In this document: one piece after another, positions 3,389 through 62,214 of the stretch | Position numbering within the stretch: the stretch's first letter is position 1 | How the letters are laid out: every line of letters starts with the position of its first letter | Assembly (NCBI GenBank): GCA_021732665.1 | Contig: JAKFUL010000001.1 | Location: 62,001 to 126,000, forward strand | DNA: 64,000 nucleotides | Direction of reading: 5' to 3' | Source of the DNA: Acetobacteraceae bacterium | GTDB lineage: Bacteria; Pseudomonadota; Alphaproteobacteria; Acetobacterales; Acetobacteraceae | Translations under genes and position numbers: made by a program | Notes under the pieces: model-generated | Seen by the model: only the letters and a program-made list of their open reading frames with translations | Told to the model about the DNA's origin: nothing | Database searches by the model: none

Positions 3389-4642
3389 CTATGATTCGGC
3401 TTTCTCGATCATCAATCGCGCCGCGGCGACAGCGGCAAAGATGCGATCATCACCCTCCAGAACCGCGGCTTCGCCGGTCGTCTCCTGCCAGCGGCGCACG
3501 ATGACGTCGGCATAGGCGGGATCGATCTCCAGCAGCACGGCGCGCCGCCCCGTGCGCTCCGCCGCGATCATGGTGGTGCCCGAGCCACCGAAGCAGTCCA
3601 GCACCGTGTCACGCGGCTTGCTGCTGTTGCGGATGGCACGCTCGACCAGCGCGACCGGCTTCATGGTGGGATGCAGGTCGTTGCGCGCCGGCTTGTCGAA
3701 GTGCCAGACATTCCCCTGGTCGCGCGCGCCGCACCAGTAGTGCTGGGCGCCGGCCTTCCATCCGTAGAGCATGGCCTCGAACTGCTGGTGGTAGTCGGCG
3801 CGCCCGAGGGCGAAGGTGTTCTTCGCCCAGATGATGGTGCTCGACCACTTGCCGCCCGCCTCCTGCCAGACGCGATGCAGCGTCGGCCATTCGGAGGAGG
3901 ACATGCAGACGTAGCAGGCGCCCTTTGTGACCGAGAGCAGATTGGCCAGTGCCGGCCGCAGGAACTCGGGAAAGCCACCGCCGAGGGCGTCATTGGCGAT
4001 GGTCATCTTCGCAGCCGTGCCGCCCTCGTAAGCCACGTTGTAGGGCGGATCGACGAAACCCATGTCGGCCAGGTGGGCGGTTCCGAGGGCGCGCTGCACG
4101 TCGATCAGCTTCGTCGCGTCGCCGCACAGCAGACGATGCTCGCCGCAGCGCCAGAGGTCGCCGGTCCGGCTGACCGGCAACACCGGCGGCGGCGGTGCAT
4201 CATCGGCATCATCGCCGAGGCCGGCATCGGCCGCGGCCAGCAGCCGATCGAGCTCCATGCCGGAGAAGCCGAGCACGTCCAGGTCGACCACCGCCTCGTC
4301 GCGGATGCGGGCGATCTCAGCGGCCAGCAGCGCCTCGTCCCAGCCGGAGTTCAGCGCGATCTGGTTGTCGGCCAGGCGTAGCGCACGTGCCTGCGCGGGA
4401 GAGAGATGGCCGAGCCGCAGCACCGGCACCGAGGCGAGCCCGAGCTGCTTCGCCGCCATGACGCGGCCATGGCCGGCGATGAGCACGCCCTCTGCGTCGA
4501 CCAGCACCGGGTTTACAAAGCCGAACTCGGCGATGGACGCCGCGATCTGCGCCACCTGCGATGGCGAATGCGTGCGCGCGTTCTCGGCGTAGGGGACCAG
4601 CGCTGCCACCGGCATGGCGGAGACCACGAGATCAGGCTGCAT
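3389..4642 (-). CDS. ParB-domain DNA methyltransferase (DPPY type)
   Basis: A 417-residue fusion. Residues about 8-100 are a ParB/Srx-like domain with the signature LIAGHGRVMAAKQLG. The second half is an amino-DNA methyltransferase with motif IV DPPYNVAY first and the AdoMet-binding motif I CFGGSGTTMIAAERTGR near the C-terminus, a beta-class circular order that methylates adenine N6 or cytosine N4. The ATG at 4642 overlaps the previous methyltransferase gene by 11 bases, implying translational coupling. No restriction nuclease is adjacent, so these are orphan phage methylases that may guard the phage genome against host restriction (inference). Confidence 0.9.
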   Translation of the reverse strand: MQPDLVVSAMPVAALVPYAENARTHSPSQVAQIAASIAEFGFVNPVLVDAEGVLIAGHGRVMAAKQLGLASVPVLRLGHLSPAQARALRLADNQIALNSGWDEALLAAEIARIRDEAVVDLDVLGFSGMELDRLLAAADAGLGDDADDAPPPPVLPVSRTGDLWRCGEHRLLCGDATKLIDVQRALGTAHLADMGFVDPPYNVAYEGGTAAKMTIANDALGGGFPEFLRPALANLLSVTKGACYVCMSSSEWPTLHRVWQEAGGKWSSTIIWAKNTFALGRADYHQQFEAMLYGWKAGAQHYWCGARDQGNVWHFDKPARNDLHPTMKPVALVERAIRNSSKPRDTVLDCFGGSGTTMIAAERTGRRAVLLEIDPAYADVIVRRWQETTGEAAVLEGDDRIFAAVAAARLMIEKAES

Positions 4643-6098
4643 CGGCGGTGACCTCCATCCGCGCCGTAGCCACGGCGTCGTATTCGCGGCCATCATCCGC
4701 CAGCGTTACCGGCAGGTCGGGATGCAGCATCCGCCATCGGGCGACCGCCAGGTCGACATAGGCGGGCGCCAGCTCGATCGCCCGTACGCGGCGGCCGGTG
4801 CGTTGGCCCGCCAGGATGGTCGTGCCGCTGCCGCCGAAGGGCTCGAACACCGCATCGCCCTCGTCGGTGTAGGTGCGCATGAGGAACTCCGGCAGCACGA
4901 CCGGGAACACCGCGGGGTGCTCGGTCTCGATGCCACGGCCCTTGTGGCGGGTAAGGCGCAGCACGTTGTCGGGGATGCGGAAGTCCTGCACCGGCAGGCC
5001 GGCATGCTGGTATTCCGAGATGGTCCCATCGGCGGCGCGCAGCCCGCTGCCCTTGTTCGGCGTACCGGCCCATTTGCAGGGGACGATCTTATTCGCCTGG
5101 CGGGCCTGGCGGTTGAAGTGGAAGACGAACTCGAAGGCAGGTGCGAGCCGGCCATTCCAGTCACCCGGCAGCCCGGGTCCCTGGTCCCAGGTGTATAGGC
5201 CGAAGCGCCGCCAGCCGCGGGCGCGCATCCAGTCGAGCCAGCCGGACCAATAGGGCTGCCATTCATTGTCGCGGTGGATCAGGCCGAGGTTCACCAGCAC
5301 CTGGCCGTGCGGCCGCATGGCCGCGTCGAGGTGCTGGAACACACCCTGCATCAGGGCGTCCCAATCCGTACCGCCGCCGGTGGTGTAGTCTCGCTGATTT
5401 CCGTAGGGCGGGCTGGTGAACAGCAGCGCCGCGCGGTCGTCGCCCATCACGCGCGCCACGCTGGCGGCGTCGGTGCTGTCGCCGCAGAGCAGGCGGTGCT
5501 CGCCCAGCAGCCAGAGGTCGCCGGGACGCGTGACGGCCTGGCGCGGCGGCTCCGGATCGGCATCGGCGAGGTCGTCTGCCGTCTCCTCCGTATCCGCCGC
5601 GCCACTCGCGCCGTCCCCCTCGGGGGCATCCGCGGACAGAGCCTCGGGCGCGTCGCCGTCGGACACGGCATCTCCAGCCGCCGCGAGGATGTCCGCGAGC
5701 TCATCCGCCGAGAAGCCGAGCGCACCGAGGTCGATGTCCTGCACCGCCTGCACCGCGGCGAGCGCATCGCGCAGCAGCGCCTGGTCCCAGGACGCATTCT
5801 CCGCGATACGGTTATCGGCGAGCCGCAGCGCCTCCTTTTGCGCGGCGGAGAGGTGCCGCAGCACGATCACCGGCACCTTGGCCATGCCGAGCGCAGACGC
5901 CGCCTCGAGGCGCCCGTGGCCGGCGATCAGAACGCCGTCCTCATCAACCAGCAGCGGGTTGGTGAAGCCGAAGGCCAGCATGCTGGCCTTGATCTGCTCC
6001 AGCTGCGCGGCGCTGTGCACGCGGGCGTTGCCGGCATGCGGGCGCAGCTCCGGCACCGGACGCAGCAGGATTTTCGCCGCCATCCAGGGGAGCGTCAT
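4632..6098 (-). CDS. ParB-domain DNA methyltransferase (SPPY type)
   Basis: A 488-residue paralogue of the downstream gene. The N-terminal ParB-like domain has LIAGHGRLEAASALG. A long acidic linker (about residues 140-190, rich in Asp, Glu and Ala) leads to a methyltransferase with motif IV FTSPPYGNQRDY and motif I PFGGSGTTILAGQRTGR, the beta-class order. SPPY often marks N4-cytosine or N6-adenine enzymes. The start at 6098 is chosen because the upstream extension crosses repeated TGCAAACC motifs. Two adjacent overlapping fusions with different catalytic tetrapeptides suggest two different methylation specificities. Confidence 0.9.
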   Translation of the reverse strand: MTLPWMAAKILLRPVPELRPHAGNARVHSAAQLEQIKASMLAFGFTNPLLVDEDGVLIAGHGRLEAASALGMAKVPVIVLRHLSAAQKEALRLADNRIAENASWDQALLRDALAAVQAVQDIDLGALGFSADELADILAAAGDAVSDGDAPEALSADAPEGDGASGAADTEETADDLADADPEPPRQAVTRPGDLWLLGEHRLLCGDSTDAASVARVMGDDRAALLFTSPPYGNQRDYTTGGGTDWDALMQGVFQHLDAAMRPHGQVLVNLGLIHRDNEWQPYWSGWLDWMRARGWRRFGLYTWDQGPGLPGDWNGRLAPAFEFVFHFNRQARQANKIVPCKWAGTPNKGSGLRAADGTISEYQHAGLPVQDFRIPDNVLRLTRHKGRGIETEHPAVFPVVLPEFLMRTYTDEGDAVFEPFGGSGTTILAGQRTGRRVRAIELAPAYVDLAVARWRMLHPDLPVTLADDGREYDAVATARMEVTADAA

Positions 6099-6457
6099 CG
6101 GGCCATCCGGATCTGGGAGTGGGTGCAAACCATGCGGCCCGCGGGTGCAAACCTGGCGCGGCATGGTTTGCGGGCTATCTGTTTGATCGCACGGGGAAAG
6201 GCTGCAAACTGCAACCCTGTTTTATGGCCTGGCGCTAGCGACCTAGCGCGCTTCCGCCCCCCGCATACAGCGGGGCCAGGAAGGACCCTGCGGCTCGAGA
6301 GCCACAGTGGCTGATCAGAGGTCGAGTGGCTCGGGAGCCACGAGCGGCAGCCGCAATTCAACGACTATCGAGAGATTACCCGATGTGAGTTTCAGGCATC
6401 AACACGACATTCTTTCGCTGCACTTCCTTCTTTCTCGCTTGGTCGTTTGGCAAACCT
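6099..6457. other. Intergenic region with hairpins and TGCAAACC motifs
   Basis: No convincing gene. It holds direct copies of TGCAAACC near 6122 and 6142 with an inverted copy near 6165, close upstream of the methyltransferase start, so these could be operator half-sites. Further right are two hairpins built from the same arms: AGCCAC/GTGGCT at 6300-6312 and GTGGCTC/GAGCCAC at 6326-6341. The second could end transcription of the minus-strand gene that stops at 6458, although no T-run follows. Confidence 0.45.
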
Positions 6458-17926: not shown

Positions 17927-18629
17927 GTTCGTTCTCCAGGGCGTTGATCCAGAGCGGCAGCCGCTGCAGCGCCTCGCGGGCCTCGCCGCGCAGATCGGCG
18001 AGCAGGGCTCGCGGGCTGCGGCCGGCGAGCGACGCGAAGTCGGTGGGCAGGGTCGCCACGGTGAGGACGGCCGCCGTCCAGTCGGCCCAGTCGGCGCCGA
18101 TCGGCGCGACCTTCGGCGGTTCGGGCGCGGGGGCCGGACGCTTGGTGCGGGTCGGCTGCGGGCCGAGCGTGGCCTCCAGCGCGCCGCGGACGGCGCCGCG
18201 CAGCCCGGTCATGGTCGGCGGCGCGCCGTCGGCGCGGGACTGCGCGAAGTAGGCCTCCATCGCGGCGCGCCCCGCGGCCTGGGCCTGTTCCTCGCGACCG
18301 CCAGCCAGTTCCTCGTAGCGGTGTGCCGTGCTGGTGGAGATGCCGGCATCGGCCAGGGCCTGGGCCTTCGAAATTCCCACCGCTGGGAACTTCGAGCCAC
18401 CGCCTGAGCCGCCATGGTCTGCGCGTTCCAGCTCCCGGCTCAGCTCACCGATCCGGACGCAGGCGCGCAGGTGGATCTCGCGCACCCAGACCTCGAGATC
18501 ACGGTCGTCGCGCTGGCGGGCATAGGCGGCGAGCGCCGAAGCCTTGTCTCGGATCTCCGAGGCTTCATCGATGCGGGCGCATTCGGCCAGCGCGGTGCGG
18601 GCCTGCTCGTAGCGGACCAGCGCGGGCAT
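17910..18629 (-). CDS. Phage/plasmid protein with conserved N-terminal helices
   Basis: A 239-residue protein. The N-terminus (ARTALAECARIDEASEIRD, ALAAYARQRDDRDLEVW) is a helical module seen in many phage and plasmid proteins. The segment GISKAQALADAGISTSTAHRYEEL resembles an HTH. A Pro-rich linker leads to a helical C-terminus. The start shares bases with the stop of the HTH gene (TGATG). It may help recruit replication proteins, but this is a guess. Confidence 0.6.
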   Translation of the reverse strand: MPALVRYEQARTALAECARIDEASEIRDKASALAAYARQRDDRDLEVWVREIHLRACVRIGELSRELERADHGGSGGGSKFPAVGISKAQALADAGISTSTAHRYEELAGGREEQAQAAGRAAMEAYFAQSRADGAPPTMTGLRGAVRGALEATLGPQPTRTKRPAPAPEPPKVAPIGADWADWTAAVLTVATLPTDFASLAGRSPRALLADLRGEAREALQRLPLWINALENEHDHSA

Positions 18630-18859
18630 CAGGCGGTCACCGCGGCCGGTACGTCGGCATTGGACGGCTGGGGGGTGCTGGTGGCGTCGCGGGTCTGCGC
18701 CGCCTCGAAGGCCTCAATGTCCTCGAGGCGATAGGCGACGCGGCCGCCCAGCTTCAGGAAGGCGGGCCCCTGGCCCAGCCAGCGCCAGCGCTCCAACGTG
18801 CGGGGGCTGAGGCACCAACGGCGCGCCACCTCCGTCTGCGTCAGATGCTTCACTGTCAT
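18629..18859 (-). CDS. AlpA/excisionase-like HTH protein
   Basis: A 76-residue protein with a MerR-type winged HTH, HLTQTEVARRWCLSPRTLER, and the wing sequence FLKLGGRVAYRLEDIEAF. This is the HTH_17 pattern of AlpA regulators and excisionases. It is the first gene of the long replication operon, preceded by about 100 bases with no gene, so it may control operon transcription or direct excision by the serine recombinase at 23223. Confidence 0.78.
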   Translation of the reverse strand: MTVKHLTQTEVARRWCLSPRTLERWRWLGQGPAFLKLGGRVAYRLEDIEAFEAAQTRDATSTPQPSNADVPAAVTA

Positions 18860-18961
18860 CGGAGCTTCCCTCGCGCTGGTTCGAACAACCGCGGGGAAGA
18901 TCGCTTCAGGACAGGGAGAAGAAGGAGGTGGGGTTAGGGAGAAGAAAAGGGAGAAATCGGC

Positions 18962-19897
18962 CTACAGGTCGAAGCCCCAGGCGCCCTTCACCGAGGAGAG
19001 GTAAGGCTTCAGGAGCTTCCACTTCGCGGCACCAAAGTGTCGGTGCAGTGTGCCGTGGTCGGTGAGCTCGCAGATCGGCACGCGCTTGCCGGCATAGAAT
19101 GCGTCGACCAGCTTGCGCATGGCCGCGATGTGGGCGTCCGACCTGAAGAGGATCGGTTCGCCGCCGTGGATGCGGAGGCGTTTTCCATCCGGCGATAGGT
19201 CCAGGGGGCCTGGGACGGCCGCGACTGCGACACCACGCATGCGGGCGTCCAGGATCTCGCCGCTCACGGCCAGGCAGTCCTCCGCGGCCAGCACGTCGCG
19301 GATCGGCACCAGGATCGTGCCAGGCAATGTCACCCCCCGAAGACGGGCGGCGCGACTGGTGCATAGGATGATCACGTCCCGCGGATAGGGTCGTGCCTGC
19401 AGTGCGGCCGCGACCTGGGCCCGCACCGCGGCGTGCCACATTCGGCGCGCGAACCATGTCTGGACACGCGCCGGGCGCTTGCCCAGGCGGGCATCGCCGA
19501 TCTCCCAGAGCAGCCCCTCGATCAATGGCCGTGGCGGGCGCGTCGACGGCACAGCCAGATCAGATGCGAGCGCGGCGATGGTGCTGGCGATTTCGATCCG
19601 ATACCGGGTCAGCCGCGCAGCCGGCACAGCGATCAGTCCACCGGACGGGCTGAAGTACGCGAGCCCGCCCGCCTTCTCGGATCGAATCAGCGTCACCGGC
19701 GCGTCGTCATGATCCGCAAGCGACGCCGAGACGGTCTCGTGACCGTGGGGCACCAGCAGCCCGCATGCGCGCAACATGCCAACGGGGCCGGGCGACATCT
19801 CCGCCACGGCCCCGTTCAGAAAGGGCTCCTCCAGGTCCAGCACCTCGAGGAGCAGCGCGACAGCCTCGGCGGAGAGCCGGGGCGGTTCGTCAGACAT
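18962..19897 (-). CDS. Unknown protein, second gene of two-gene unit
   Basis: A 311-residue protein with no family I recognise. It begins MSDEPPRLSAEAVALLLEVL, has a central basic segment (ARVQTWFARRMWHAAVRAQV), two beta-rich segments (GGLIAVPAARLTRYRIE; VTLPGTILVPIRDVLAAED) and a C-terminal helical part, AKWKLLKPYLSSVKGAWGFD, that could be a winged helix. The start overlaps the upstream gene by 8 bases, so the two act together. It is separated from the replication operon by about 100 bases. Confidence 0.65.
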   Translation of the reverse strand: MSDEPPRLSAEAVALLLEVLDLEEPFLNGAVAEMSPGPVGMLRACGLLVPHGHETVSASLADHDDAPVTLIRSEKAGGLAYFSPSGGLIAVPAARLTRYRIEIASTIAALASDLAVPSTRPPRPLIEGLLWEIGDARLGKRPARVQTWFARRMWHAAVRAQVAAALQARPYPRDVIILCTSRAARLRGVTLPGTILVPIRDVLAAEDCLAVSGEILDARMRGVAVAAVPGPLDLSPDGKRLRIHGGEPILFRSDAHIAAMRKLVDAFYAGKRVPICELTDHGTLHRHFGAAKWKLLKPYLSSVKGAWGFDL

Positions 19898-21089
19898 CCC
19901 GCAGCATCCGCCAGCGCTTCAGGTACTTCTCACCGACCAGGCGCTCGCGGTCGGTGCGGTCCTTCAAATCGCAACCCTTCGGCATGGAGATGGTGACCGG
20001 CAGCGTGCGACCGCCGCGTACCCCTGGCGTCGCGTGGAACTTGATGGTGAAGCGGGCCTGCGTGACCTTGTAGCCGCCGGCCAGCGGATCGGTTTCGCCG
20101 AAGCGAGCCTCCGCCATCTGCCAGATGCTGCGCTCGGCGCCGCGCATGCATTCCAGCGTCACGCGCTCGCCCTGCGTCTCGTAGGGCATCAGCCGCAGCA
20201 GCGTGACCTTCACGGATTCGATGTTGTCCTCGACATCGTGCGGGAAATCGAAGGGCTGCAGCAGGTGGTCCAGCGAGTACTGGCGGATGGGGATGCGGTC
20301 GCCGTCGAACGGCGCGCCCAGCATGTGCTCGGCGAACAGCCGCACCAGGTCCTCGCGGGTCTCCCGTGCCTGCGCCACCACCTCGATGGTGCCGGAGGCG
20401 GGCTCGTAGGTGATGGCCGCCTCGACCACCGGGCGGAAGGGGAGCCGGTCCAGCTTGCCGTTGACGAAGGCGCGCCGATCACCGGCGCGGCCTTCGCGGT
20501 AGATGGCGACCTGGATCAGCGCCGCGTCCTCCCCGTCGAGCGAGGGGCGGGACCTATCGCAGATCTCCACCTCGACATGCTTCGTGTCGAAGTGCGTGGC
20601 GATGGCCGCCTTGAATGCCGTGTAGGGATCACCGTCACGGGGCACCGTCAGGCCGGGCAGGCATTCGAAGCCGTCCCACATGCGGCCATAGCGGCGGTCA
20701 TCGGCATAGCGGACTTCCTCCGCATGACCGAAGCCGGCAGGGTCCTTGAGGAACATCCACAGCGCCCGGGCATGCGCGTTTTCCAGGGAGTCCAGAATGT
20801 CTGCAGCATTGGTGATCGAGTAGAGCGCTGCCTGGCCGGATTCGTCGGTCATTGCACCGACGCGGTCGGCGTCGTTCATGACGCGCAGCCGCTCGGCGTC
20901 GTGCATGGCATCCACCGCCCGCAGCAAGGGTGGCACGACCACGTTGGCCGCACCCTCCCACACCACATCGGGCGGCATCTCGGCCTGGATGAACGTGAAA
21001 TATGAGCGGAGCGACGCGGGGGGCGTGCTCCGGATGAAATCCGGGACTGTCGGCACAGGGGGTCTTTCGATCAGGGCCACGCCGGACAA
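19890..21089 (-). CDS. Unknown protein, first gene of two-gene unit
   Basis: A protein of about 399 residues (TTG at 21089; GTG at 21080 is an alternative). An N-terminal helical third is followed by a predicted alpha/beta middle with RPSLDGEDAALIQVAIYREG and a C-terminal third containing SVKVTLLRLMPYETQGERVT and TRFTIKF-like strands. I recognise no domain. Together with the next gene it lies between the phage repressor genes and the replication operon, a place where phages often carry cargo. Confidence 0.65.
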   Translation of the reverse strand: MSGVALIERPPVPTVPDFIRSTPPASLRSYFTFIQAEMPPDVVWEGAANVVVPPLLRAVDAMHDAERLRVMNDADRVGAMTDESGQAALYSITNAADILDSLENAHARALWMFLKDPAGFGHAEEVRYADDRRYGRMWDGFECLPGLTVPRDGDPYTAFKAAIATHFDTKHVEVEICDRSRPSLDGEDAALIQVAIYREGRAGDRRAFVNGKLDRLPFRPVVEAAITYEPASGTIEVVAQARETREDLVRLFAEHMLGAPFDGDRIPIRQYSLDHLLQPFDFPHDVEDNIESVKVTLLRLMPYETQGERVTLECMRGAERSIWQMAEARFGETDPLAGGYKVTQARFTIKFHATPGVRGGRTLPVTISMPKGCDLKDRTDRERLVGEKYLKRWRMLRDV

Positions 21090-21173
21090 TCCGGCGCTCC
21101 GCTAATCGACGTATCAAGAATCGGTGTGCGGGCACAAGCGAAAAGATACGCACAGCAGCGTAGTCCTGTCGGG

Positions 21174-21896
21174 TCAGCCGAAGAGCGTGGGAGGCCCAGC
21201 CGAATCGGCCAGGAGACCGAGCTTGCGCAGCCGAACTCGCGCCGCCTCGGCGGAAACCTGGAAGCTGGCCATGACATGCCGCTCCGCTTCCTGGGCCGCC
21301 GGCGTGCCAACCGCTGCCACGCCGTGGATCCCTTGGCCTCGGAGCAGATCCCCAACCGCCCGACGCACCTGTTGGGCCGGCATCAGGATGGCGCCGCTGA
21401 AATAGCCGGCCTGCCATTCCAGCCAATCGAACTCGCTGGTCCCCATCATGCTGTCGCGCTTGCAGACTGTCCGCGGCTCCGCGCGCGCGGCCTCAAACAT
21501 GTGCGGCGGCGCGGCGAAAAGCTGATCAAAGACAGCCCGGTGGTAGAAGGCGTGGCCCAGTTCATGGGCGAGCGTGGTGCGGAGCCGATTCTGCCGATTG
21601 GCTTGCTCGGTCAGCTGAATGGAGATCAGGACCAGCGGCGGTTCGTCTGGCAGGAAGCACGTCATCCCCTCGACGTCGTCGCCCTCGTCGGAGAGGTCGG
21701 CATATTGGTCCAGCCTGCTGCTGTGCTGGTCGACCAGCACCGTGAGGTCGTCGGTGGAGATCGGGAAGCGGACATTGCCGTGGCGCTGCTGCAGGAAGGC
21801 CGTGACCAGGCGCTCGCAATCGCGGTCGATCTCCGCGGCACGCAGGAAGAGCCTCTGCGGGAATCGCCCCGATTTATCGATCGACCAGCTCGCCAC
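21174..21896 (-). CDS. ImmA/IrrE-family metallopeptidase
   Basis: A 240-residue protein from a GTG at 21896. The zinc-peptidase signature is RTTLAHELGHAFYHR (HExxH), with a downstream EWQAGYFSGAILMPAQQVRR that is typical of the family. Proteins of this family cleave or trigger removal of a partner XRE repressor after DNA damage or other signals (ICEBs1 ImmA is the model). The XRE gene lies just upstream in the same direction, ten bases away, so it is the likely substrate. Confidence 0.88.
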   Translation of the reverse strand: MASWSIDKSGRFPQRLFLRAAEIDRDCERLVTAFLQQRHGNVRFPISTDDLTVLVDQHSSRLDQYADLSDEGDDVEGMTCFLPDEPPLVLISIQLTEQANRQNRLRTTLAHELGHAFYHRAVFDQLFAAPPHMFEAARAEPRTVCKRDSMMGTSEFDWLEWQAGYFSGAILMPAQQVRRAVGDLLRGQGIHGVAAVGTPAAQEAERHVMASFQVSAEAARVRLRKLGLLADSAGPPTLFG

Positions 21897-21906
21897 GCAT
21901 GCAATC

Positions 21907-22233
21907 CTATTTCGAGAGGGCTTTACGGAACGCCTTGAAGGCCCTGACCCTGGTTGCCGAATCGGTCGCGGCGGCGCGGAGGTCCTCGGGGATCTTGCCG
22001 GCCAGGACGAACAGGTCATCCGCGTCCACGGATAAGGCCCGGGCGAATTCTCTGATGAGCTGGTCGGAGGTCGGGCTGCGGCGGTCGTGCTCGATGTCGT
22101 TGAGGTATTGCGGCGATATCGATCCCGTGCCGTCCTCCTTCTGGACAGCGGCGGCCAGGTCCTTCTGGCTGATCCCCTGCTTCTTCCTGGCGGCAATGAT
22201 GGCCTGTCCCAGGGTGGTGGTCGGCGTTGTCAT
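21907..22233 (-). CDS. XRE-family repressor
   Basis: A 108-residue protein with a lambda-type HTH: LGQAIIAARKKQGISQKDLA, then SISPQYLNDIEHDRRSPTSD. The C-terminal part (FARALSVDADDLFVLAGKIP) may dimerise. The ATG at 22233 is preferred over an upstream in-frame ATG at 22269, which would lie inside the operator-like dyad at 22268-22299. It probably controls the divergent recombinase cassette and itself, with inactivation by the neighbouring ImmA/IrrE protease. Confidence 0.88.
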   Translation of the reverse strand: MTTPTTTLGQAIIAARKKQGISQKDLAAAVQKEDGTGSISPQYLNDIEHDRRSPTSDQLIREFARALSVDADDLFVLAGKIPEDLRAAATDSATRVRAFKAFRKALSK

Positions 22234-22267
22234 CGCCCTTGCATCCGGCGAAATCCTTGCCTGTGGC

Positions 22268-22299
22268 ACTTAGCGGAGTGGCGTAGTCGGCTGCTAAGT
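22268..22299. promoter_or_regulatory. Operator-like dyad between repressor and recombinase cassette
   Basis: Perfect 7-base arms ACTTAGC (22268-22274) and GCTAAGT (22293-22299) separated by 18 bases lie 35 bases from the repressor ATG, in the divergent region with the plus-strand cassette. A further TTAGC half-site lies near 22337. This is a good candidate binding site for the XRE protein. The rest of 22234-22522 shows no gene. Confidence 0.55.
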
Positions 22300-22522
22300 C
22301 CTACGTCAAGCCGCGAAGTTGGACGTGGCGAAGGATTTAGCTTCCGCGATGGGACCCTGCGCCGGCGCCGATTCGCGGCGCCACGACCCGGGTCACGCTG
22401 AAACCGGCAGGGCAACGCCCTACGCGCGATTTCGCAGCGGTGCTTTTGTTCCCGCGGGCCTTCTCTAAGAGATTGTTTTCGCTGTTCTTCTTGGTTGGGC
22501 AACACGATCTTGCCTCCCAGCC

Positions 22523-25168: not shown

Positions 25169-26449
25169 ATGCCGCGCCCTCGCTCAAGCAATCCCAGATC
25201 CAATGTTGCGAACGTTCGCCTAACGGATGAAGAGCACGCGGACATGGAGAATTGCGCAGCGCGTCTCGGCTACAAAAATATCTCCGAGTATCTGCGGTCT
25301 CTTCATGAAGCCGCCCACAAGAACGTCGCCAAAGATAAGTCCGAAGGAGCCGAGACTGAGGACGTGGCGAATATATACCCGAAAAAACTCGTTCGTTCGT
25401 TCCACAAGACAAGCCTGGGCGAAATCATGTGGGGGGATAGCCGGGCCTGGTTGCTCAACGTCGCCAAGCCTGGCTCCGTTGATTTGATCATGACGAGCCC
25501 GCCTTTCGGCCTAGTGCGGAAAAAAAGCTACGGCAACGAGGACGCAGATTTCTATTGCGATTGGTTCCGCCCGTTCGCTGAAGGCTTCCGGCGTGTCCTG
25601 TCGGATCAAGGGAGCCTGGTCATCGATATCGGGGGCTCATGGATACCTGGGCAGCCGACCCGCAGCCTGTATCACTTCAAGCTTCTTATCATGCTAGTCG
25701 AGGAGTTCGGTTTTCATCTCTGCCAGGAGCACTACTGGTGGAACCCCTCGAAGCTTCCGTCGCCGGCCGAATGGGTCAACATCCGCAGGATCCGCGTTAA
25801 GGACGCAGTCAACTCGATTTGGTGGCTTTCCAAGACGCCCTGGCCCAAGGCCAGCAACCGCCGCGTCTTACAGCCTTACAGCAAGTCGATGCAGGACCTT
25901 CTTGCGAACGGCTATGTGGCGAAGCTCCGTCCATCGGGCCACGACATCTCCGATAAATTTTCGCGCGACAACGGCGGCTCCGTGCCGCCCAACTTGTTGG
26001 CCGTCGCCAACACGGAATCCAACGGGCGTTATCAAGACTATTGCAGAGAGAAGAACCTCCCAATTCATCCCGCCCGCTTCCCGGCGGCATTGCCTGAGTA
26101 TTTTATCCGAATGCTTACTGACGCTGGCGACTTTGTGGTCGATCCGTTTGGCGGATCATGCGTGACAGGCGCTGTCGCCGAGGCGCTTGAGCGCAAATGG
26201 ACCTGTTGCGAACTCGATGAGGGGTATCTTGCCGGCGCCATGGCACGCTTCATGCCGCGCCCGCAGCCACTCCCGAATGGCAAGGAGGTGGTTTATGAGA
26301 TTGCCCCGCCTTGCGCGCTGCCACTCGATTTGTCGCACAAGCTTCCGGCTGATGGAGGCCGCAGCCGTCCCCCCGAAACAGGCAAGACGTTCGGCGCAAT
26401 CAGTGGCGAAGCCTCTCAGCCCAAGCGCCGAGCTGGCCTTGCCGGATAG
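25169..26449 (+). CDS. RHH-like DNA methyltransferase (SPPF type)
   Basis: A 426-residue enzyme. Residues about 10-50 (NVRLTDEEHADMENCAARLG) look like a ribbon-helix-helix DNA-binding segment. The methyltransferase has motif IV MTSPPFGLVRKKS near residue 108 and motif I DPFGGSCVTGAVAEAL near the C-terminal third, the beta-class order; SPPF is usual for N4-cytosine methylases. An ACAGGA ribosome site precedes the ATG. The 3' end overlaps the convergent nuclease gene by 50 bases. It is taken as the protective half of the restriction module that follows. Confidence 0.87.
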   Translation: MPRPRSSNPRSNVANVRLTDEEHADMENCAARLGYKNISEYLRSLHEAAHKNVAKDKSEGAETEDVANIYPKKLVRSFHKTSLGEIMWGDSRAWLLNVAKPGSVDLIMTSPPFGLVRKKSYGNEDADFYCDWFRPFAEGFRRVLSDQGSLVIDIGGSWIPGQPTRSLYHFKLLIMLVEEFGFHLCQEHYWWNPSKLPSPAEWVNIRRIRVKDAVNSIWWLSKTPWPKASNRRVLQPYSKSMQDLLANGYVAKLRPSGHDISDKFSRDNGGSVPPNLLAVANTESNGRYQDYCREKNLPIHPARFPAALPEYFIRMLTDAGDFVVDPFGGSCVTGAVAEALERKWTCCELDEGYLAGAMARFMPRPQPLPNGKEVVYEIAPPCALPLDLSHKLPADGGRSRPPETGKTFGAISGEASQPKRRAGLAG

Positions 26450-27641
26450 AGGCGAAGTCGCAGATCATTGGCACGTCCGCCGGCAAAGGCTCAGGTGCCG
26501 CAAGGCCTTCCAGCCCTTGGCTGACCGCCACCAGGCTCCGCCCGAGCAGCGGGCCAGTTTCCTCGATTGGGTGATAGAGTCGTGCGTAACGAACCAATTG
26601 TTCGACGGCGCTACGCACCCGGTCGGATGCATCTTCTGCCGTGAGGTATTTGACCTCGATGACGGCCGCCACACTGCGGCGGTCGTTGTCGATTACCACG
26701 AGGTCCGGTCGGTCTGACGATGCCGAGAGGCTGTAGGAAGCCAGGATGTTGCGGACGACTTGTTCAGAAGGTTCGATCTCTGGCGGCCGATAGAGGTCTG
26801 TCCGCGATTGCCAATAGACCGCGTAGCGCCCGACGCGCGCGATCGGGATACTGGTATCGCCCATGAGCAGATTCAGTGTGAGTGCCCCACCCTCACTTGC
26901 TGCGAGAGCTTCGGCGACGCTGAACGCGATCGCCAGCTCATACCGCCGCCAGGTTTCAAGGGGAGCCAGCAATGTGTGCCGCAGCAGGGTTGCGATCGTC
27001 TCAGGATCGCCGGCTTCGATCCTCAACAATGCCTCGTAGGCATCGCGCGCGCGCCGATAGATCTCCCGTCGTGACCGCCCCGCCTCAAGCAATGCAGATG
27101 CGCCAGGCCGCTTCGCCGCCAAGGTGTCCGCTGCGATAAGACCGATCGCTTGGATACGACGAACCTGTTCCAGGGTCTGGACGTTTGTCGTGACCGTCTC
27201 CCGATAGGATGCACTTGCCGGCAACATGGCCGTGAAACGCATCCCGAGCGACCACGCTTGCATCAGTACCCAGATCAAGACTTGGTTCGGGCCGGAATGG
27301 TAGGAACGAAGCGGTTCGTCGCTAACCATGGCCGTGGTGAGTCCTGTCATGCGCCGATGCAGCAAGGTAGCACGCGCATCAATCCGGCCCCTCACCATGC
27401 CGTCTTCGATCCGGCGCGTGGTGCTCAGCATCGATTGGATTTCATGGCGATGCTGAAGGACGTAAATCGCGAGATCGCGCACGACTGGCGAGAACGCCCA
27501 ATGCAGCCTCAACAGGTCCCGATCACGTGCTGCATCAACATACGGCCGCTTGGCACCAGCTTCGGCTGCTGCCCGAAAATATCGCAGGAGGAATCTCGCG
27601 ATATGGTCCGTGATTTCGGAGTCGTCGACGAATACCGCCAT
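26400..27641 (-). CDS. McrC-like protein with PD-(D/E)XK nuclease
   Basis: A 413-residue protein. Residues 313-331 give a clear nuclease core, DLVVID then AVIEVKY (Asp313, Glu329, Lys331), followed by SAVEQLVRYARLYHP, as in the McrC/LlaJI group. The first 300 residues are helical (YRRARDAYEALLRIEAGD) and resemble no family I know. It is two bases downstream of the AAA+ gene. It would be the DNA-cutting subunit driven by the McrB-like ATPase. Confidence 0.75.
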   Translation of the reverse strand: MAVFVDDSEITDHIARFLLRYFRAAAEAGAKRPYVDAARDRDLLRLHWAFSPVVRDLAIYVLQHRHEIQSMLSTTRRIEDGMVRGRIDARATLLHRRMTGLTTAMVSDEPLRSYHSGPNQVLIWVLMQAWSLGMRFTAMLPASASYRETVTTNVQTLEQVRRIQAIGLIAADTLAAKRPGASALLEAGRSRREIYRRARDAYEALLRIEAGDPETIATLLRHTLLAPLETWRRYELAIAFSVAEALAASEGGALTLNLLMGDTSIPIARVGRYAVYWQSRTDLYRPPEIEPSEQVVRNILASYSLSASSDRPDLVVIDNDRRSVAAVIEVKYLTAEDASDRVRSAVEQLVRYARLYHPIEETGPLLGRSLVAVSQGLEGLAAPEPLPADVPMICDFASIRQGQLGAWAERLRH

Positions 27642-27643
27642 GG

Positions 27644-28789
27644 TTATATGGCGACGCTGAGTAGCCTACGACTGAGCCCGATTGCTTCGATACTCTCGGG
27701 CGGCAGGGCGAGCGCACCGATCACCGCGTTGATGATGCCTTCCGCTTCATGCCTGAGGATGCCATCCAGGATCGGCAGGAAGAACAGATCGAAGGCATCG
27801 AGATAAGCCGTCTTGAGATCGCCCACCGGAGGTCCTAGGAGGTCAGCCTCTGGTTCCATGATGCGGATCGCTTTGATGGCGTCGATGACCGGCGCCGGCC
27901 CGATGGTCCGGACAAGGTTGACGGCATCCCAGATGGCCGCAAGCGGCGGTGTTCCGGCCGAGGGTGCCGCCTCCTCCTTCAGAACTTTCTCAACGTAGCT
28001 CCGCACGAAGCCTGCCGGGTTGCGCGGAGCATCGACATATATCCAGCCGAACCGGCGGCTCAGGGCATAGCTCATCTGGTAGAGCGACGCCTTATCCACG
28101 GAGTTAATGGTGGCAATCAGTCGCCATGCCGTCCCCGGCGCGAACTCATGGATGGCCGGGTTCTCTTTCCACTCCGGGAGGATTTGATACTGCGGGCTCT
28201 CCGCTTCCGCCACGACAGTCCGATAGGGCAACGTCGTCGCTTGACCCGACAGAACCGTAAAGAGGGGGCCAATCACCTTGTCGATGTCGCACCGATTGAG
28301 CTCGTCGATGACGAGCGGCCGATCGAAGTTCTGCAGCAGGACGCCCGGGAAGAATTTCACGGTTCCGTTCGCAAGCGGCTGGTAGCCGCCGATAATATCT
28401 TGCGAGCTCCAATCAGCCGATCCTGTGATTAAGACCCATTTGCGTCCGTTGAGGACACCCGCTACGCGACGAGCAAGCGTTGTTTTGCCCGTGCCCGGCG
28501 GCCCGTAAAACATCAGGTGTTGCTTGCCGCCATTCACTGCCGCCTCAATCTGGCGATAGACGCTCGGATCAATGCCAATGAGATCATCGAAGGGCGGCAG
28601 CTTGAGCAGTTCGCCATTCACCAGCCCGCCCGTATCTTCACCTTCAGCATCGGACGCTTCGAGCGCAGCGGCTACGCGTTCATGCCGGGTCGTGGTACCG
28701 GCGCGGTCATACGCGGCGGCGATCGCGGCCTTTAGTTGATCGCGATCGTCCTCATCGAGGAGGCTGAAGACGGGAACAGGCTTACTCAT
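27644..28789 (-). CDS. McrB-like AAA+ ATPase
   Basis: A 381-residue MoxR/McrB-group ATPase. Walker A YGPPGTGKTTLARRV spans residues 95-109, Walker B is RPLVIDELNRCDIDKVIG, and sensor/arginine-finger region is LIATINSVDKASLYQMSYAL then SRRFGWIYVD. It has no DNA-recognition N-terminus, which is encoded separately just upstream. In McrBC-type systems this subunit translocates along or loops DNA and activates the nuclease. The start overlaps the upstream gene by 8 bases. Confidence 0.88.
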   Translation of the reverse strand: MSKPVPVFSLLDEDDRDQLKAAIAAAYDRAGTTTRHERVAAALEASDAEGEDTGGLVNGELLKLPPFDDLIGIDPSVYRQIEAAVNGGKQHLMFYGPPGTGKTTLARRVAGVLNGRKWVLITGSADWSSQDIIGGYQPLANGTVKFFPGVLLQNFDRPLVIDELNRCDIDKVIGPLFTVLSGQATTLPYRTVVAEAESPQYQILPEWKENPAIHEFAPGTAWRLIATINSVDKASLYQMSYALSRRFGWIYVDAPRNPAGFVRSYVEKVLKEEAAPSAGTPPLAAIWDAVNLVRTIGPAPVIDAIKAIRIMEPEADLLGPPVGDLKTAYLDAFDLFFLPILDGILRHEAEGIINAVIGALALPPESIEAIGLSRRLLSVAI

Positions 28790-61627: not shown

Positions 61628-62214
61628 TTCCCTTCGCCGATCCGGGGTTCCGTCCCGCGCGCGAGGCGCTCGATATTGGCCTGGTGGCGCCAGGCGACGA
61701 AGGCGGCGATGACGAGGATGCCGATGCCCACCGGCCCCGGCGTGAGCACCACCGAGGAGATGACCGAGGCGCCCATGGCCGAAAGCGAGGCCAGCGAGGA
61801 GATTTTCCGGAGTTTCGCCACCAGCAGCCAGATGGCGCCGGCCACCAGGAAGACCGGCCAGGCCAGCACGAGGAAGACGCCCAGCGCCGTCGCCACCCCC
61901 TTGCCGCCACGGAAATTCAGCCAGGGCGGCAGGCAATGGCCGATCACCGCGGCGACGCCGGCCACGACATCGGGCCCCGTGCCGATCAGCGCATGGGCGG
62001 CCCAGACGGCCACGCCGCCCTTGGCCGCATCCAGCAGCAGGGTTGCGGCGGCCAGCGCCTTGTTGCCGGTGCGCAGCACATTGGTGGCGCCGATGCTGCC
62101 CGAGCCGATTTGCCGCACATCCCCCAGCCCCGCCGCGCGGGTCAGGATGAGGCCGAAGGGGATGGAGCCGAGCAGCAAGCCCAGGATCGCCGCCAGTATG
62201 GCTTCGAGGATCAT
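61624..62214 (-). CDS. plsY: Glycerol-3-phosphate acyltransferase PlsY
   Basis: A 196-residue inner-membrane enzyme that acylates glycerol-3-phosphate with acyl-phosphate. Five or so hydrophobic segments are visible. The three family motifs are GSIPFGLILTRAAGLGDVRQ with GSGSIGATNVLRTG, then HCLPPWLNFRGGKGVATALG, and a late GIGILVIAAFVAWRHQANIE. The ATG overlaps the pyrX stop (ATGA). Confidence 0.95.
   Translation of the reverse strand: MILEAILAAILGLLLGSIPFGLILTRAAGLGDVRQIGSGSIGATNVLRTGNKALAAATLLLDAAKGGVAVWAAHALIGTGPDVVAGVAAVIGHCLPPWLNFRGGKGVATALGVFLVLAWPVFLVAGAIWLLVAKLRKISSLASLSAMGASVISSVVLTPGPVGIGILVIAAFVAWRHQANIERLARGTEPRIGEGK

Follow-up and report, generated by a model that had tools for sequence, protein, structure and literature searches.

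A conserved gene pair with a downstream repeat array in a prophage-like element: a probable two-gene transcription controller

Described systems and the B-A unit

Lambda RexA, the partner of RexB, is reported to have an RdgC-type fold, to bind DNA non-specifically and to bias the lysis-lysogeny switch of the phage (PMC11077077). RdgC itself is a nucleoid-associated protein of E. coli, and CENP-N/Chl4 and CENP-L/Iml3 belong to the inner kinetochore. Orthologues of CENP-N and CENP-L resemble RdgC, as stated in PMC4080450. CapW, CapH-CapP (helix-turn-helix (HTH) plus peptidase) and CapK-CapS are DNA-damage-responsive controllers that lie beside immune operons such as Bub and CBASS; CapK is activated by single-stranded DNA, and 88 of 443 capKS pairs lie directly behind predicted restriction-modification (R-M) systems (PMC13373217). 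The two-gene unit B-A is compared here with these systems. It lies in a 64,000-nucleotide stretch of DNA, hereafter the window, which covers positions 62,001 to 126,000 of contig JAKFUL010000001.1 from an Acetobacteraceae bacterium.

B-A is probably a new two-gene transcription controller (probability about 0.68), in which A would be the site-specific component and B a partner with the RdgC/RexA/CENP-N fold. Pairing, fusions, the predicted fold of B, the repeat array, its covariation with A and the genomic contexts were computed. From these we infer DNA binding itself, the direction of regulation, and the action and sensing of B. The pair and its repeats are as follows.

19890..21089, minus strand: gene B, 399 amino acids; stop codon at 19890-19892, TTG start at 21087-21089; RdgC/RexA/CENP-N-fold protein by model
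18962..19897, minus strand: gene A, 311 amino acids; ATG start; open reading frame (ORF) and AlphaFold2 model
18949..18955, minus strand: repeat unit 1, TTCTCCC
18937..18943, minus strand: repeat unit 2, TTCTCCC, 12 bp from unit 1
18914..18920, minus strand: repeat unit 3, TTCTCCC, 23 bp from unit 2

B is the upstream gene, and the 3' end of its ORF overlaps the start of the A ORF by 8 nt, which confirms the two overlapping genes of 399 and 311 residues described in the initial annotation.

B probably resembles lambda RexA in its RdgC-type fold (by model), and it has a similar place beside the repressor of a prophage immunity region. It differs in having no match to the RexA sequence model, and where lambda has the membrane protein RexB, B has A, which is modelled as a winged-helix partner. 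The array and the frequent divergence from the repressor also distinguish B-A from RexA/RexB. The modelled fold of B resembles that of RdgC over residues 127-399, but B has an extra helical N-terminal part, a partner gene and a location on mobile elements, and it lacks a Pfam RdgC match. The best structural matches of B are CENP-N/Chl4 and CENP-L/Iml3; these are eukaryotic, and a centromere role for B finds no support here.

Like CapK-CapS and CapH-CapP, B-A is a two-gene unit directly before an immune-type operon, in four gammaproteobacterial loci. The second gene of capKS carries a winged HTH (PMC13373217), as A is modelled with a winged helix, and R-M genes stand beside some B-A loci too. 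An XRE gene and an ImmA-type peptidase gene next to the prophage B-A recall CapH-CapP. In contrast to these systems, B has no kinase or peptidase domain match and A has no STAS match; the CapK-CapS domains (HTH-STAS-GHKL kinase and STAS-winged HTH) had no Pfam listing among the aligned members of A and B at E up to 0.1. The RdgC-type fold and the repeat array of B-A are not met in the CapKS account, as far as the excerpt of PMC13373217 extends. On the best reading, B-A is analogous, not homologous, to CapH-CapP and CapK-CapS.

The lack of a recognisable family, noted in the initial annotation, held in the libraries searched: neither A nor B has a named family above the curated cut-off in Pfam, NCBIfam, PADLOC or the PDB sequences, and strong matches to ordinary phage structural or replication proteins were not found. 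The sole strong match of B is phrog_37634 (unknown function, E 4e-71). Weaker names were discounted because the matches were short, weak or under the cut-off: DNA_pol3_theta (0.0021) and DUF7162 (7 of 86 aligned sequences, best 0.00026) for B, and SycN (0.0086) and ribonuclease P (0.11) for A, from the PDB and NCBIfam. By tblastn, A and B had no match in phage records, and in plasmid records B matched one and A none. Homologues were collected from viral contigs and genomes. Of 398 Pseudomonadota genomes, 33 contain B relatives (E up to 0.001, with distant ones counted); among relatives of the source genome, B was found in 7 and A in 6 of 147, weak matches included. The pair is thus unnamed so far in the libraries searched. 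Full-text literature searches, whose coverage left subscription papers and preprints mostly outside, found no account of the pair or its array.

A follows B on the same strand within 1.2 kb in 138 of 142 distinct B ORFs, which answers the question raised in the initial annotation of whether homologues occur as a pair, and the reading frame of A is already open where B ends in 95 of 96 nonredundant rows. The four B ORFs without a standard A are a fragment (L034), a distant relative with an A' gene behind its B (L035), a contig end (L046) and a fusion (L174). Because of the phrog_37634 match, the relatives in 33 genomes and this pairing, A and B are real genes, and they form a conserved, near-obligate pair. 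B and then A are joined in a single ORF in three genomes (L376, L377 and L384; A scores 44, 36 and 69 bits); the fused ORF of L384 begins inside B, so that the first quarter of B lies outside it. On a viral metagenome contig (L174), a single ORF joins B directly to the C-terminal part of A by eye, which could be an assembly artefact. A serine recombinase gene lies near the fusions of L376, L377 and L384. Two overlapping, optional genes on mobile elements would also suit a toxin-antitoxin pair. This explanation has the slimmest chance of those weighed here, as a toxin domain is absent from the library matches of A and B, and their fusion in some genomes is unexpected for a toxin and its antitoxin.

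In related prophages the same slot is filled by two subfamilies of the pair that are more distant, B'-A' and B''-A''. The hhalign comparison gave 98.0% for B and B' over 363 columns, 98.5% for B' and B'' over 379, 79.9% for B and B'' over 171, and 95.4% for A and A' over 249; A'' showed no profile link to A (2.1%) or A' (14.8%). Before the neighbour analysis, L034, L035 and L037 (short or distant) and L197 (B ORF not found) were dropped, and B copies of 97% identity were collapsed from 137 to 95 loci, where the window is represented by its identical locus L001.

The repeat array and its covariation with A

The array was first seen by aligning the stretch behind A. It was then scanned for as three similar 7-mers with spacings of 11-13 and 20-24 bp and at least 19 of 21 pairwise matches. 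Loci with too little sequence behind A were excluded, and 91 were kept. An array lies behind A in 66 of these, against 0.18 expected from dinucleotide shuffles; 69 loci are counted at 17 matches, and 64 stand above 20 shuffles. The same scan found the array in none of 86 loci upstream of B and inside A in one of 95. Tandem direct-repeat sites of the OmpR/PhoB type are comparable to this arrangement; in the pho box, direct repeats lie about 11-12 bp apart. The unit is nearly constant within a locus and varies between loci (TTCTCCC, TTCTGCC, TTCTCTC, TCCTACC, TCCTCCC and TTCACAC). The array is present whether the next conserved gene is AlpA, c3, c7 or MultiUb; among the MultiUb loci, three have TTCACAC arrays and L098 has a weaker one, not above its shuffles.

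Two positions of the unit vary together with the C-terminal domain of A. Of the 12 A columns that covary best, 10 fall within residues 229-311 for unit position 2 and 9 for position 5, where residue 286 is the top column. The best scores at these positions are 0.73 and 0.52 for A, against 0.25 and 0.28 for B. Residue 286 was tabulated for 60 of the 69 array loci, namely those with one of eight clear units. It is arginine in 19 of 21 TTCTCCC loci and glutamine in the other two, and threonine in all six TTCTGCC loci. Glutamine is found in the TTCTCTC (6/6), TTCTGTC (1/1) and TTCACAC (3/3) loci, and lysine in the TCCTACC (18/18), TCCTCCC (4/4) and CCCTACC (1/1) loci. Arginine facing G and glutamine facing A at unit position 6 would correspond to usual contacts.

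Relatedness was controlled by comparing pairs of loci at equal identity of the N-terminal part of A, in six bins. In every one of these bins, the C-terminal domain of A is less similar between loci with different units, the difference being 0.10 to 0.27; in the top bin, for example, its similarity is 0.55 for different units against 0.82 (n=7 and 44). In the same comparison, B shows either no drop or the reverse in the lower three bins, and a drop of 0.06-0.08 in the upper three. The loci L043 and L018 are 87% identical in the N-part of A and 95% in B, yet only 52% in the C-terminal domain of A, and their units are TTCTCCC and TTCTGCC. Judged from these sequences, this is a natural exchange of the putative reading domain together with its site.

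The AlpA-like protein, encoded by the next gene in the window, was considered as the repeat binder and set aside. Over the same 41 loci, the best covarying column scores 0.68 in A, 0.33 in B and 0.19 in AlpA, so that its columns barely covary, and the MultiUb loci have MultiUb, not AlpA, as the next gene. A very likely binds the repeats, because the unit varies with its winged helix and far less with B or with the product of the next gene; the C-terminal winged helix is most likely the part that makes the contact.

The repeats could instead be RNA elements, such as Rho-utilisation or antitermination sites, on which A or another factor acts in the transcript. The units are indeed pyrimidine-rich on the coding strand, spaced at about 12 nt and intergenic. 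Covariation with a winged-helix domain argues against action on RNA, as do the purine-rich units (GGGAGGA, 11-bp period) of the B'-A' locus L277, which are tied with its best shuffle and not above it. The RNA explanation is accordingly held to be very improbable.

Predicted folds of B and A

Structure prediction had been proposed as a check in the initial annotation. It yielded an RdgC/CENP-N-type fold for B by model and winged-helix parts for A; profile comparison gave B no link to RdgC or RexA. The AlphaFold2 model of B, a single chain, has a predicted local distance difference test score (pLDDT) of 88.8 and a predicted template modelling score (pTM) of 0.83, from an alignment of 86 sequences. 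In the Foldseek search of the PDB, the nine best rows for B are RdgC and CENP-N/L-type kinetochore chains, with E from 7e-4 to 1.4e-2 and probability 0.75-1.0; the global TM is low, at 0.19-0.29 on the query. The 17 best VIA-align rows are RdgC, Iml3 or kinetochore-complex chains with Z from 9.2 to 6.2, the last of which we read as CENP-N/Chl4 or CENP-L, and rows of other folds begin at Z 6.0 downward. Residues 69-267 match human CENP-N 1-192 (6c0w) at Z 8.8 and a root-mean-square deviation (rmsd) of 5.0 over 165 residues, with the helical N-terminal part included. Residues 127-399 match RdgC 2owl at Z 7.1 (rmsd 6.7, 221 residues), and Iml3 4kr1 is matched at Z 6.7 (rmsd 5.4, 177 residues). 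Three of the ten highest-ranking rows in the viral fold library bear the name recombination-associated protein or RdgC. A RexA entry is absent from the structural rows shown for B. The Pfam RdgC model matched neither B (E up to 1) nor the 86 aligned sequences (E up to 0.1). B is modelled, on this basis, as an RdgC/RexA/CENP-N-fold protein.

The AlphaFold2 model of A (117 sequences) has pLDDT 90.2 and pTM 0.75. Its secondary structure comprises an N-terminal winged-helix pattern (about residues 1-60), an alpha/beta part (about 102-223) and a C-terminal winged helix (229-311). The stretch corresponding to residues 60-90 or so is a zinc ribbon in distant homologues (CxxC...CPxCG, by eye), and A has conserved D62, D65, Y81, F82 and S83 at this position. 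A probably carries a degenerate zinc ribbon, because distant A-type proteins show the CxxC...CPxCG pattern there.

The C-terminal winged helix of A is weakly OmpR/PhoB-like in the model. Residues 225-311 gave VIA rows for RpaA, VanR, RstA and others at Z 3.4-4.6 and rmsd 3.2-4.0, which is below what the tool calls telling. Pfam Trans_reg_C matched neither A nor any sequence aligned with it, and A' of L277 reached 0.0061, below the cut-off. In contrast to OmpR/PhoB regulators, A has no receiver domain match and instead has the N-terminal winged-helix pattern and the alpha/beta part. In a Foldseek search of the PDB with A, no row reached E 0.001 (best 0.51), and none of the PADLOC models matched A. 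The acetyl-CoA carboxylase chains that head the VIA list for A (Z 5.7-4.7, residues 1-227) are unrelated and were not used; the Rio2-kinase rows (Z 3.4-3.6) were not used either. Rows for Bax1, EcoO109I, TIP26 and RPB5 (Z 4.8 to 3.4) suggest a restriction-endonuclease-like part at residues 102-223. A nuclease function is not claimed for A, since the (D/E)xK motif was not seen.

Genomic contexts and proposed mechanism

The pair lies between an XRE/ImmA switch and an AlpA-like HTH gene, as the initial annotation had it, and these neighbours are confirmed by Pfam.

21907..22269, minus strand: XRE-type repressor gene of the switch (Pfam HTH_3, 1.5e-9)
21174..21896, minus strand: ImmA/IrrE-type (M78) peptidase gene of the switch (Pfam Peptidase_M78, 2e-7)
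21146..21163, no strand: dyad CTACGC-N6-GCGTAG with one mismatch, between the ImmA-type gene and B; possible XRE operator
18629..18859, minus strand: AlpA-like HTH_17 gene, the first gene past the repeats (Pfam HTH_17, 1.2e-7)

The ImmA-type ORF is open from 22196, and its start was set at 21896 by reading; its 240-amino-acid form has seven viral relatives, all on contigs that also bear B. The AlpA-like protein matches phrog_66 (excisionase and transcriptional regulator) at 1.5e-9. Past its gene come the genes of a replication block, of the Sak4, SSB, Cas4-exonuclease, helicase and primase types, and serine recombinase and DUF2924 genes lie on the opposite strand. The XRE, ImmA-type and AlpA-like genes, the replication block, the serine recombinase and the DUF2924 gene mark the region as that of the switch and early genes in a prophage-like element. 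Measured between ORF ends, the short gaps beside the pair are 84 nt long on the ImmA side of B and 102 nt long between A and AlpA; the triple direct repeat in the second gap had been missed before.

XRE and/or ImmA-type genes adjoin the pair in 72 of the 95 nonredundant loci. In 35 of these they are of the window type, upstream and on the same strand, and in 37 another set is divergent (clusters c10 and c11, named by eye); neither is present in 23, some perhaps from lack of sequence. A conserved ORF of about 90 amino acids (cluster c16, 20 of 95 loci, among them L067, L085, L061 and L091) lies between the XRE-type gene and B. The best 80 of 267 relatives of the window helicase were taken, and an identity of at least 84% with at least 7.5 kb upstream left 30 viral contigs. 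B is present in six of these (in L277 only as the distant B') and A in five. The alternative content of the slot includes B'-A' or B''-A'' pairs in other related prophages. On one viral contig with a 96% identical helicase (L217:1976-4611), the slot holds a 263-amino-acid ORF and a QueC/QatC-like ORF of 639 amino acids (PADLOC QatC, 8e-55), which is candidate defence cargo. In L226 the slot holds a sigma-70 region 2 protein and a divergent XRE/peptidase pair. The sigma-70 region 2 proteins seen in the early slot (L226:5081-5833, Pfam 1.5e-9; L277:3089-3835, 9e-5, below cut-off) are possible phage-encoded sigma factors. B-A is exchangeable cargo of the immunity region, because related prophages are often without the pair or have other content in the slot. 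The phage cargo proposed in the initial annotation, with anti-phage or lysogeny genes as examples, is supported in this respect by the variable presence and the immunity-region place. Nothing shows that the pair is itself an anti-phage effector, and the evidence points to a DNA-binding controller.

The main rival is Rex-like superinfection exclusion, in which B binds invading phage DNA, A replaces RexB and the array only autoregulates the pair. Its attraction lies in the modelled RdgC-type fold, reported for lambda RexA (PMC11077077), and in the place beside the repressor, as rexA adjoins cI. The optional presence of the pair, the QatC-like protein that one relative has in this slot and the R-M genes beside some relatives also fit. 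On the other hand, the PADLOC RexA model, which matches lambda RexA at 9e-110 as a positive control, does not match B (E up to 10) or B' and B'' (E up to 0.1). B-A is transcribed away from the XRE/ImmA-type genes and is co-oriented with the replication genes in 37 of 95 loci, whereas rexAB follow cI. The array lies toward the next operon and not upstream of B, and a B-A pair before ubiquitin-like genes looks like a controller. Taken together, Rex-like exclusion appears unlikely.

Iteron-type replication, in which the array is an origin bound by A and B acts like RdgC on intermediates of an early replication/recombination unit, is less likely than Rex-like exclusion and should be called quite unlikely; action at the RNA level also ranks below exclusion. 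With their helical spacing the direct repeats are reminiscent of iterons, the pair heads an operon with Sak4, SSB, exonuclease, helicase and primase genes, and the RdgC-type fold with its three recombination-associated or RdgC-named viral matches would suit such a role. Similar replication modules, with 84-98% identical helicases, are nevertheless often without the pair, as the five A genes in 30 contigs illustrate. The pair also lies before ubiquitin-like genes in four gammaproteobacterial loci (L029, a Candidatus Tenderia plasmid, and L098, L100 and L102), where the same three genes stand behind B-A, and the replication clusters seen in the prophage set are absent from its surroundings in the two maps viewed (L098 and L102). 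Pfam was run on these three genes for L029, and gave Multi_ubiq at 1.6e-34, Prok-JAB at 0.0054 (below cut-off) and ThiF at 9e-35. Upstream of the pair in L098, ORFs read by eye as HsdM, HsdS and HsdR, and a YgjP-like gene is also present. L381:707-5612 carries a type ISP R-M gene, then B and an A-like gene (by eye), then a DUF3987 gene.

The covarying repeats and the place before two unrelated kinds of operon favour a DNA-binding controller over a killing or blocking protein. In the proposed mechanism of the B-A controller, the C-terminal winged helix of A would bind the direct repeats of about 7 bp at steps of 11-12 bp, one to two turns apart. These repeats lie behind the A gene and before the next operon, and A would set the transcription of that operon. 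B probably embraces DNA without sequence specificity and would act with A, because of the pairing and fusion. Its probable role is either to signal what condition the DNA is in, such as the presence of recombination or damage intermediates, or to keep A stably on the array, and B would so supply or gate the signal. The controlled operon of this prophage would start with the AlpA-like gene and the replication genes, beside the XRE/ImmA switch, and B-A would tune the lysogeny/lysis decision from that switch to the early operon. Elsewhere, in some gammaproteobacteria, B-A stands ahead of multi-ubiquitin, JAB-like and E1-type genes and may control them. A wider proposal can be put forward only tentatively: B-A may represent a further class of controller, in which a winged-helix adaptor sets a CENP-N/RdgC-type DNA clamp on a short array of repeats, and the clamp, on sensing DNA that is damaged or replicating, switches the operon next to it. 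Such a controller would serve prophage induction and a ubiquitin-like operon alike, and its specificity would be exchanged with the array as a module.

Several results weigh against the controller. At unit positions 4 and 6, B columns (0.67 and 0.37) covary about as well as A columns (0.70 and 0.37); these positions are dominated by divergent gammaproteobacterial loci and were not used for the column ranking. The loci in the covariation analysis are related and residue 286 was chosen on the same loci, so that its counts are not independent. The RdgC and Iml3 matches of B lie at Z 6-7 and rmsd 5-7 Å, and the tool warns that Z below 8 may mean a common arrangement only; because of this, what counts is that one structural family stands at the top of the VIA list. 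By hhalign profile, B has no sequence link to RdgC or RexA (probability at most 0.3%, and 0.2% for RdgC). The comparison of RexA with RdgC is equally silent (0.2%), so that this test cannot decide the kinship. Among a further 33 A-type genes, for the most part more distant, the array stood above all 50 shuffles in 8 and not in 25. These eight include the fused gene of L384 and, with an 11-bp period, the A' genes of L263 and L035; this set may overlap with the 91 loci, and L372 was left out as its stretch reads N. The array is thus typical of the main group, neither confined to it nor universal, and other forms are possible in distant genes. Finally, a sigma-70-like promoter was looked for in 18700-22500 and none was found.

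If the controller is confirmed, an unnamed and widespread pair would join the small set of switches that turn on prophages and immune operons. An adaptor with what looks like a residue-to-base code would tie the fold of RdgC, RexA and kinetochore CENP-N to site-specific regulation. This code and the domain swap between L043 and L018 make the claim directly testable. One controller before both a prophage early operon and ubiquitin-like genes would also bear on how such systems stay silent until needed.

The dyad between the ImmA-type gene and B rests on a dyad-match scan and an alignment of 13 sequences. It overlaps a weak terminator-like stem (21147-21162), and the terminator scan was not above expectation (1 found, 1.2 expected). 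Dyad matches with up to three mismatches number 45 in the window against 42 expected, which is not above chance. Four of the five window sites with up to two mismatches cluster at 21146-22437, around XRE-ImmA-B, and this clustering is suggestive of XRE operators. Beyond the serine recombinase, positions 25169-28789 hold a type II-like DNA methyltransferase (PADLOC, 7.5e-111), a 413-amino-acid protein with no assigned function and a dynein-type AAA_5 ATPase; together these might form a restriction-type cluster. At 3392-6164 two adjacent genes both match the phrog_498 DNA methyltransferase, with ParB-like N-terminal matches (PHROGs).

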